The notes beneath the pieces were generated by a model. That model searched no databases, had not been told where the DNA came from, and was given only the letters and a program-made list of their open reading frames with translations. Source: Bryobacterales bacterium (GTDB taxonomy: Bacteria; Acidobacteriota; Terriglobia; Bryobacterales; Bryobacteraceae). From it: a DNA stretch of 64,000 nt. Where the stretch lies: the NCBI GenBank assembly GCA_019261985.1, contig JAFAQY010000007.1:1-64000 (forward strand). The letters run 5' to 3'. The position numbers and the translations under genes are program-made. This document shows positions 1,554-3,966 of the stretch, one piece after another (position 1 is the first letter of the stretch; each line of letters starts with the position of its first letter).

Positions 1554-2750
1554 ATGCGCGCTGGTTTCTTGTTGGCTTTCTCCATGGCCGTTCCATCCCT
1601 GTGGGCTCAATCCCTCGCGGGCGAGTGGGATGCCACTGTCCATGCCGGCGGAGTCGATGTTCCGTGCAGGTTCGTAATTTCCGGAGAAGGCTCGAATGTT
1701 CAAGGAACCTTCTTCAACGATCAAGAGCTGTACCGGTCCACAACGGGAAAATTCGAAAACGGCTCGCTCACGCTGAATTTCGACTACACCACGTCGAAGC
1801 TGGAAGCGGTGTACAAAGACAGCGCGCTGGAGGGCGTCTATCACAGCACGCGCGGGACTTACGGATTCCGCGCCGTTCCGCATGTGCAGCCACCGCCGCC
1901 TTCGCCGAACCCGCCGCCGATCGATGGATCGTGGGAGATTGCGCTGAAGAGCGGCAAGGGCGAGGACGCATGGCAATTTCTGGTTCGTCAAAATGGCCCC
2001 GAAATAAAGGCATCGATCCTCCGCGTGGACGGCGACACAGGCACGCTCGCGGGTGTCTGGCGCGATGGCAAATTCACGCTGAGCCATTTCTCGGGCGCCC
2101 GCCCCGCGCTGCTCATCGCCACGCCCCAGCCGGATGGCAGTCTGCATCTGCTGATGAACGGGAACACCGAGTACACCGCCCTGCGGCCTGAGGCCGCCCG
2201 GGCGAAGGGCCTCCCGCCGCCAACCGACCCGACCCTCCATACCGGAGTCAAGGACCCCGATCAGCCCTTCCAGTTCTCCTTCCGCGATTTGAACGGAAAG
2301 CCCATATCGAATACCGACGCTCGCTTCAAGAACAAGGTCGTCATAGTAAATATTCTCGGAAGCTGGTGCCCCAACTGCCACGACGAAGCTCCGTTCCTTG
2401 AAGAAATGTACAAGAAGTACCGGGCCAAAGGAGTGGAAATCGTTGCACTCGATTTCGAAGATGCGGAGCAGTTGCAAGACCCATCGCGCATGCGAGCGTT
2501 CCAGAAGCGCTACGGCATCGACTACACGATCCTGGTCGCGGGCGGAACACAGGAGATAAATCAAAAACTGCCGCAACTGCGCAACTTCAACGCCTGGCCG
2601 ACCACTTTCTTCTTAGGGCGCGACGGCAAAGTAGCGCACGTCCACGCCGGATTCCCAAGCTCCGCCAGCGGCCAAAAGTACGCCGATGCAAAGCAGGAAT
2701 TCGAAGAAACGTCGGAGCGCCTGTTAGGCGTCAGCTCAGCGATTAAGTAG
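1554..2750 (+). CDS. Secreted TlpA-like thioredoxin-fold protein
   Basis: A 398-residue exported protein. Residues 1-20 form a signal peptide ending in a typical AQS site. Two repeated beta-rich segments follow (about 22-105 and 122-210, each opening with the pattern GxWD/E), joined by a Pro-rich linker (PPPPSPNPPP). The C-terminal 160 residues are a TlpA/ResA-type thioredoxin domain with the motif GSWCPNCHDE (C272, C275) and the cis-Pro segment WPTTFF. The family reduces disulphides or apocytochrome thiols outside the cytoplasm. A strong AGGAGG ribosome site lies 7 bases before the ATG. The next gene on the strand, 48 bp on, is a second thiol-redox protein of the ArsC/Spx fold. Confidence 0.9.
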   Translation: MRAGFLLAFSMAVPSLWAQSLAGEWDATVHAGGVDVPCRFVISGEGSNVQGTFFNDQELYRSTTGKFENGSLTLNFDYTTSKLEAVYKDSALEGVYHSTRGTYGFRAVPHVQPPPPSPNPPPIDGSWEIALKSGKGEDAWQFLVRQNGPEIKASILRVDGDTGTLAGVWRDGKFTLSHFSGARPALLIATPQPDGSLHLLMNGNTEYTALRPEAARAKGLPPPTDPTLHTGVKDPDQPFQFSFRDLNGKPISNTDARFKNKVVIVNILGSWCPNCHDEAPFLEEMYKKYRAKGVEIVALDFEDAEQLQDPSRMRAFQKRYGIDYTILVAGGTQEINQKLPQLRNFNAWPTTFFLGRDGKVAHVHAGFPSSASGQKYADAKQEFEETSERLLGVSSAIK

Positions 2751-2798: not shown

Positions 2799-3131
2799 AT
2801 GAAACTCTACCTTAAACCCACCTGAAGTTCCTGCCGCAACGCGAAGAGTTTCCTTCGCGACAAGGGCGCGAAATTCGAGGAAATAGACCTCAACCAAGGC
2901 CTGCCCGAAGCCGAGCTAAACGCGCTAATCGGCGATCGCGATTACAAGCTGTTCCTGAATCCGCGTAATGAGGTTTATCGCGAAAAAAAGATGAAGGATT
3001 CGCCGCCTTCACGCGCGGAGGCGATCCGCCTGATGTCGCAGCACCCGAACCTGATCCGCCGCCCGATTCTGGTAAAAGGCAAAGAAATCGTGCTGGGTTG
3101 GGATCGCGAAGCCATGCACAAGATGCTATAG
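2799..3131 (+). CDS. ArsC/Spx-family thiol-redox protein, probable selenoprotein (in-frame TGA at codon 9)
   Basis: Reading through one TGA gives a complete 110-residue protein of the ArsC/Spx/YffB fold. It starts MKLYLKPT-U-SSCRNAKSFL, where the family usually reads MKLYxKPTCxxCRKAK; the TGA (2823-2825) therefore replaces the first Cys of the CxxC site, giving U9-S-S-C12. The rest is intact and typical: LNPRNEVYRE near residues 50-60 and the conserved NLIRRPILVKG segment near 85-95, with a TAG stop at 3129. A SECIS-like hairpin begins 14 bases after the TGA. Seen: the frame, the single TGA and the hairpin. Inferred: selenocysteine insertion and a reductase role. The alternative is a TGC/TGT-to-TGA mutation or sequencing error. 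No selA/B/C/D is visible in the window. Confidence 0.75.
2840..2859 (+). promoter_or_regulatory. Candidate bacterial SECIS stem-loop
   Basis: Inside the coding sequence just after the UGA, a perfect 7-bp stem CGCGAAG/CTTCGCG (2840-2846 with 2853-2859) closes a six-base loop AGTTTC. A G sits at the second loop position (2848), 22 bases after the UGA, followed by U. As I recall the bacterial SECIS model, a G within the first two apical-loop bases about 16-37 nt from the UGA is expected, and this fits. SelB recognition itself is inferred. Confidence 0.65.
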
Positions 3132-3240: not shown

Positions 3241-3966
3241 ATGCCTCATCTAGCCGCGTGGCAATGGATCCTCGGATCGCTCTGCGCCTATCTGATCGGC
3301 ATCGCGAAAACAGGCGCTCCCGGCGTTGGCTCGCTCATGGTTCCGCTGATGGTCCTTACGGTGGGCGATGCGCGCCAGGCGGCCGGCTGGACGCTTCCCA
3401 TTCTCTCGACCGCCGACGTTTTCGCCGTCATCTACTGGCGCCGGCACGCGGACGCAAAGAAGCTGTTTTCGATGATCCCGTGGACCCTCGCCGGAATGGC
3501 CGGAGGGGCGCTCGCGCTCAGCCTCAGCGAACCCGTGATCCGGCGCGTGATCGCGGCGATTCTCCTGCTGATGCTCGGGATCCAGGTGCGGCGCCGGTTT
3601 GGCCGAGCGCCGGAGACCGCGGGCAGAGCGGGCTTCTATGGCATCCTTGCCGGTTTTGCGACCACGGTCGCCAATGCCGCCGGCCCTGTAATGAATCTGT
3701 TCCTTCTAACTCAGAAGCTGCCCAAAGAGCAGTTCGTCGCAACCGGAGCCTGGTTTTTCTTCGTGGTGAACTTGACGAAAGTGCCGATCTATGCGTGGTA
3801 TCACCTCTTCAGCCGCCCGTCGCTGACGTTCAATGCAATGATGGTACCGCTAGTTGTCGCGGGAGCGATCACCGGAAGTTGGCTCGTCCGCCGCGTCTCG
3901 CAAGCCCTCTTCGAGCTTTCAGTGCTGGTGCTTACCGGAGTGTGCTCGTTATTGCTGTTTTTTTAG
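3241..3966 (+). CDS. TauE/SafE-family membrane exporter
   Basis: A 241-residue inner-membrane protein with about seven or eight hydrophobic helices and the family's typical opening, a small-residue-rich first helix followed by GIAKTGAPGVGSL. The second half repeats the pattern (GFATTVANAAGPVMNLFLL), as expected for the internal duplication of TauE/SafE proteins. Members export sulfite, sulfoacetate or related organosulfur anions; the substrate here is not determined. It starts at ATG 3241, 109 bp after the ArsC/Spx gene on the same strand, so a link with thiol or sulfur chemistry is possible but unproven. It ends 2 bp before the end of the convergent RLPDGH-type gene. Confidence 0.88.
   Translation: MPHLAAWQWILGSLCAYLIGIAKTGAPGVGSLMVPLMVLTVGDARQAAGWTLPILSTADVFAVIYWRRHADAKKLFSMIPWTLAGMAGGALALSLSEPVIRRVIAAILLLMLGIQVRRRFGRAPETAGRAGFYGILAGFATTVANAAGPVMNLFLLTQKLPKEQFVATGAWFFFVVNLTKVPIYAWYHLFSRPSLTFNAMMVPLVVAGAITGSWLVRRVSQALFELSVLVLTGVCSLLLFF

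Follow-up and report, generated by a model that had tools for sequence, protein, structure and literature searches.

A gene of the ArsC/Spx family in a Bryobacterales genome that very probably uses TGA for selenocysteine at its active site

Judged by sequence comparison, a short gene of a Bryobacterales bacterium very probably uses an in-frame TGA for selenocysteine at its active site. It lies in the 64,000-nucleotide stretch of DNA analysed here, called the window. We are highly confident that the gene encodes a selenoprotein of the ArsC/Spx fold, with SelB-dependent selenocysteine at position 9, in which U9 and Cys12 would serve a thiol/disulfide-type oxidoreductase. The computed basis is the alternation of TGA and Cys codons among homologues, a covarying hairpin linked to the TGA, the predicted fold, and the selA, selB and selD genes of the same genome. 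From these we infer selenocysteine insertion, a catalytic cycle, a cell location and a type of substrate. A first-pass annotation of the bare sequence had already proposed an ArsC/Spx selenoprotein with UGA at the first Cys of a CxxC motif; the alternation, the hairpin and the three sel genes bear this out.

Table 1. Positions in the window of the selenoprotein gene, its elements and its neighbours
Feature	Position	Strand	Remarks
ArsC/Spx-family selenoprotein gene (probable)	2799..3131	+	110 codons and stop TAG 3129-3131; PF03960 60.6 bits; AlphaFold2 pLDDT 96.5
In-frame TGA, read as selenocysteine U9 of UxxC	2823..2825	+	codon 9; TGA/Cys alternation in homologues
TGC codon, Cys12, presumed resolving Cys of UxxC	2832..2834	+	position 12 at least 90% conserved in alignment A1 (61 sequences)
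SECIS-like hairpin	2840..2859	+	stem 2840-2846/2853-2859, loop 2847-2852 AGTTTC; -10.8 kcal/mol
Upstream neighbour, 398 aa, ResA/TlpA-like thioredoxin domain at the C-terminus	1554..2750	+	Redoxin 65.2 bits, AhpC-TSA 62 bits
Downstream neighbour, TauE/SafE-family permease	3241..3966	+	PF01925 95.1 bits, cut-off 32.6

The reading frame starts with ATG at 2799-2801, and the TGA is its sole in-frame stop ahead of the terminal TAG. With TGA taken as U the product has 110 residues. It begins MKLYLKPTUSSC, places U9 as the first residue of a U-x-x-C motif and continues for 101 residues after it. The codons behind the TGA are family-like because the match to the Pfam ArsC model PF03960 (60.6 bits, cut-off 24) spans residues 4-108. 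Thus, the initial claim that the TGA is the only in-frame stop in an otherwise intact, family-like gene holds. In standard annotation such genes would be cut off after eight codons. Our gene is absent from the list of standard-code open reading frames of at least 80 aa, as the first-pass annotation expected of stop-based gene finders: it would be overlooked because the TGA at the active site is taken for a stop.

What do relatives carry at this codon? One genome from each GTDB species was scanned, which gave 18 loci. Of these, 16 are clear relatives, all from records that carry the name of Acidobacteria or of a group in them; L059 and L060 were dropped as partial, distant or short matches. Among the 16, codon 9 is TGA in 11 and TGC or TGT in five. 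The larger set combines these loci with those from 60 related genomes and from a phylum sample of 396 genomes, 119 of which had a match; in the sample, codons were read in the 30 best loci and in ten further TGA-labelled rows. Some GTDB loci are identical to sequences in genomes of the same family or order. Removal of five such duplicates and of L120, which has a broken N-terminal frame, reduced 74 loci to 68 distinct genes, the window included. In these 68, the comparison of relatives proposed at first pass has a clear outcome: codon 9 is TGA in 46, TGC or TGT in 22, and nothing else. Further loci picked because they had one reported TGA have it at codon 9 in 16 of 16 cases. Of 61 related genomes 41 have a match; five with weak, distant matches were excluded from the tally, and the remaining 36 with a strong match comprise 23 TGA-form and 13 Cys-form genomes. 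The TGA form is therefore not, as initially supposed, unusual in this setting.

The second line of evidence is the hairpin behind the TGA. The first-pass annotation described a 7-bp stem that begins 14 bases past the TGA and closes a loop AGTTTC with G at its second position. It is confirmed: the strands CGCGAAG and CTTCGCG pair over 7 bp around a loop of 6 nt. Folded alone (2837-2862) the hairpin reaches -10.8 kcal/mol, a value equalled by one of 200 dinucleotide shuffles. Longer fragments are weaker, with two 51-nt fragments equalled by 14 and 35 of 200 shuffles and an 81-nt fragment by 4 of 200. As set out in a recent review, a bacterial SECIS element should have a loop of 3-9 nt, a stem of 4-16 bp, a G in the first two loop positions, a distance of 16-37 nt from the UGA and a minimum free energy of -7.5 kcal/mol or lower (PMC13188914). 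The window hairpin, with a 6-nt loop, a 7-bp stem, G as the second loop nucleotide, a distance of 21 nt and -10.8 kcal/mol, is inside all of these limits.

More telling is the distribution of the hairpin. A stem of at least 6 bp whose loop has G among its first two nucleotides occurs in 37 of 45 TGA forms and in one of 22 Cys forms, in a test over three neighbouring registers (47-49) that were picked after inspecting the sequences and with related rows that are not independent. L141 was left out of these counts because a stop follows soon after its TGA. Over 500 rounds of synonymous recoding, such a stem turns up on average in 0.7 of the 45 TGA forms and never in more than 4. Without a fixed register and with 5 bp demanded, the hairpin is found in 35 of 45 TGA forms against one of 22 Cys forms. 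The dinucleotide GT at +23/+24 after codon 9 occurs in 40 of 45 and 0 of 22, respectively. Sixteen later loci, preselected for a single TGA, pass the hairpin test in nine cases. The letters of the stem vary while pairing is kept, e.g., CGCGAAG/CTTCGCG, CCAGG/CCTGG and GCAAAA/TTTTGC. In register 48, positions 18 and 30 pair in all 20 rows, as CG, GC, GT, TG or TA. Pairing is less regular at the outer end of the stem, where 15-33 pairs in 7 of 20. Free folding of the 30-nt region gives mean energies of -9.71 kcal/mol for TGA forms and -6.95 kcal/mol for Cys forms (Mann-Whitney p 0.0001). Against their own synonymous recodings 16 of 45 TGA forms, among them the window (p 0.01), and one of 22 Cys forms pass at p 0.05. 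These free-folding statistics are weaker than the hairpin motif test. With the published parameters and a covarying hairpin almost confined to TGA forms, the early suggestion of a bacterial SECIS element has gained considerably.

Of the four genes that the first-pass annotation would expect in the genome, selA, selB and selD are there, and selC was not found in the assembly. Lack of selB/selC would, according to that annotation, speak against the reading; as far as the assembly goes, this applies to selC and fails for selB. All three score above their curated cut-offs, selA with 483.5 bits, selB with 361 bits over 578 of 581 positions and selD with 367.9 bits; selD has an in-frame TGA in VKAAGUASKL, and none of the three has any other stop. 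This selD (G000:C53:32863-33774; in locus L021 at 1501-2412) is a TGA-containing selenoprotein gene in its own right. The hairpin after its TGA, GTCCAAA-GGT-TTTGGAC, has 7 bp and -6.9 kcal/mol, and narrowly misses the -7.5 limit.

The assembly is a draft of 138 contigs with a completeness of 98.83%. Its matches to the tRNA-Sec model RF01852 are other tRNAs, the best a tRNA-Ser with 47.4 bits, and a selC of the same genus used as query found no match in it. A stricter selC pattern hit three places, none of which is a tRNA; a looser one hit 211 places, and no selC was identified among the matches listed. No tRNA lies around the selA, selB or selD of this genome. In some genomes of the genus selC is located near aroDE; the corresponding aroDE contig here carries no tRNA. 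In five loci of the same order (L085, L087, L088, L089 and L090) the TGA-form gene adjoins a cluster of tRNA-Thr, tRNA-Gly and tRNA-Thr, in three of them also tRNA-Gln; none is a tRNA-Sec, though RF01852 gives 45.4 bits.

When selC is counted from 60 bits upwards and selB above its cut-off, 36 of 61 genomes have both, four have only selB (our genome included) and three only selC. Thus, 4 of 40 selB-positive genomes lack a detectable selC, and 3 of 39 selC-positive genomes lack a selB over the cut-off. The other genomes with selB and without detectable selC are G021, G032 and G037; G021 has the Cys form. Both components follow the TGA form of the gene: selC is detected in 22 of 23 TGA-form genomes, ours being the exception, against 5 of 13 Cys-form genomes (Fisher p 0.0003), and for selB above the cut-off the figures are 22 of 23 against 6 of 13 (p 0.0013). 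Both are missing in seven of 13 Cys-form and in 0 of 23 TGA-form genomes.

The missing selC is the starting point for the rival which survives best, that the lineage has just lost selC and that the TGA, decoded in relatives, is a stop here in a former selenoprotein gene. The fact that six genomes of the same genus have a selC of 64.9-76.8 bits, and that none was found in our assembly, speaks for such a loss. We nevertheless consider it very unlikely. selA, selB and the TGA-containing selD are all retained without further stops, selB without selC and selC without selB fit what one would expect of draft assemblies, and the seven other genomes of the genus that have the gene and lack selC carry the Cys form throughout. 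Since four of 40 selB genomes, our own among them, are without a detectable selC, an assembly gap is likely, and from a draft the loss of selC from the organism itself does not follow.

Less probable still is a pseudogene in decay in which the TGA arose by a point mutation. TGA is one base away from TGC, selC is missing from the assembly, and two of the 46 TGA copies, L069 (G015) and L141 (G336), have an extra in-frame TAG, a sign of decay or an assembly error. Against it stands that the same TGA recurs in 46 of 68 distinct homologues, that the frame of 44 of these 46 copies runs without another stop at least to about residue 100, that the hairpin is conserved with covariation, and that the TGA form occurs where selB and selC occur. 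Finally, a reading of UGA as an ordinary amino acid, by codon reassignment or plain read-through, would leave the frame open, yet is hardly credible as the homologues alternate between TGA and Cys, not Trp, and the TGA goes together with the hairpin and with selB/selC.

The selenoprotein reading thus leaves the question which kind of protein carries the selenocysteine. Membership in the ArsC superfamily is given by the Pfam gathering score and by a predicted Spx/ArsC fold. The AlphaFold2 model, computed from a 61-row alignment, has a mean pLDDT of 96.5; a Foldseek comparison with the PDB ranks Spx structures first (3gfk_A, TMq 0.84), closely followed by YffB and arsenate reductases. Alignment A1 contains 61 of the 66 references, with the window standing for L061 and with L069 and L141 left out of tree and alignment. 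Invariant in it are K6, position 9, L85, R88, P89 and G100. Assignment to a subfamily is another matter: the protein matched 19 NCBIfam models and reaches the cut-off of none. The best, TIGR01617, is matched over the full length with 65.2 bits (cut-off 75.05), the arsenate reductase model TIGR00014 with 47.5 bits (cut-off 106.05).

Some other Acidobacteriota sequences with TGA at codon 9 come closer to true arsenate reductase and show Arg-Thr and GRP or ARP stretches at places where the window protein differs. Arginines at these places matter in arsenate reductase. For the window protein the role of a thiol/selenol oxidoreductase is therefore, as far as the sequence tells, more likely than that of an arsenate reductase. 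Further ArsC-type genes of Acidobacteriota with TGA at codon 9 are L151-L157. Three of these seven were scanned and come nearest to TIGR00014, with 106.8 bits (L151), 95.8 bits (L152) and 91.8 bits (L156) against the cut-off of 106.05. A hairpin in registers 47-49 is found in one of the seven; in L156 and L157, and also in L134, a stem GCAAGGC/GCCTTGC seems to lie nearer to the TGA.

The following mechanism would be in line with these data. The mRNA hairpin just past the UGA would recruit SelB with Sec-tRNA-Sec, and the ribosome would place selenocysteine at position 9 instead of terminating. U9 begins the first helix of the predicted fold and may act as the nucleophile with Cys12 as the resolving thiol. 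The protein would then run through a U9-C12 selenenylsulfide cycle as a cytoplasmic thiol/disulfide-type oxidoreductase. As its substrate, a disulfide or some other oxidised molecule would be more probable than arsenate.

The resemblance to Spx permits a bolder proposal, a selenium redox switch of the Spx kind in which a U9-C12 selenenylsulfide sets RNA polymerase binding, spread throughout Acidobacteriota with repeated Sec/Cys conversion. We regard this as improbable, if somewhat less remote than the loss of selC. If true, a transcription-regulating selenoprotein would be new. We know of no selenoprotein that acts as a transcription regulator. A literature search combining Spx and selenoprotein found no paper, and Spx is absent from the accessible parts of one review.

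How does the window protein relate to known systems? One close system is NF041106 (ArsC_rel_Se_1), an ArsC-like family with selenocysteine first in UxxC, as listed in PMC13188914. At E values up to 0.001 this model matches 57 of the 61 A1 members, the best at 3.9e-10; the window protein reaches 23.3 bits where 85 are required, and by that score is not a member. Six relatives scanned at E 1e-8 gave a single match of 38.7 bits. TIGR01617 (arsC_related, Spx/MgsR) is the best NCBIfam match and agrees with the best fold matches. The window protein differs in that it stays under the cut-off and carries selenocysteine; the likeness to Spx is one of score and fold. Of three relatives of its group scanned with TIGR01617, two pass (77.9 and 93 bits) and one fails (64.7 bits). 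YffB (PRK10853, 1rw1) is likewise a small ArsC-like protein of the same fold (TMq 0.84), from which the window protein is set apart by 35.4 bits versus 121.

The first-pass annotation pointed to selenocysteine forms of this fold in some selenoproteome surveys, and rightly so, as far as the accessible portions of the respective papers go. A Sargasso Sea survey reports arsenate reductase selenoproteins of COG1393 with UxxS (PMC1088965); they share selenocysteine at the redox motif, which in the window protein is UxxC. A UxxC arsenate reductase-like selenoprotein is listed in PMC9312934, and NF041106 in PMC13188914; PMC1794560 names an ArsC-like selenoprotein of Desulfotalea together with a distant one of Desulfuromonas. 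In PMC4807772 the term ArsC, in the part available, matches only an author's name. The deep-Sep study, in its available part, counts three known selenoprotein genes, unnamed, in one Acidobacteriota genome (PMC12013277), for which reason the Sec form of our family may have been met before. Our literature search, with most subscription papers outside its reach, found no paper describing the branch of the window protein. ArsC-family selenoproteins are thus already known, and this branch is a well-supported addition.

The gene neighbourhood was inspected for a conserved operon. This was rejected since the neighbours differ between genomes. The upstream neighbour in the window scores 73.7 bits with the ResA subfamily, below the cut-off of 170. 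In eight of the 16 GTDB relatives an open reading frame of one cluster ends 0-81 nt ahead of the gene (e.g., L044:1890-2669). Three proteins of this cluster were scanned and are ABC-transporter ATPases; the window lacks such an arrangement. Three of the larger proteins ahead of the ATPase were scanned and had no Pfam match.

Relatives of the window protein are common in Acidobacteriota, and selenocysteine and cysteine were probably exchanged more than once. A protein tree of 66 rows requires eight changes of the Sec/Cys label, and well-supported branches force at least five of these; the underlying alignment is short, many forks are unresolved and the tree was rooted at its midpoint. Seven Cys forms from the genus of the window make up a clade that is nested among Sec forms. 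The direction of the changes is unproven because of the midpoint root. According to a recent review, Sec is rarely replaced by Cys, with FdhA and SelD as the main documented cases (PMC13188914). With eight label changes, and with the joint absence of selB and selC confined, among the 36 genomes, to those with the Cys form, this family is a natural experiment on keeping or giving up selenocysteine.
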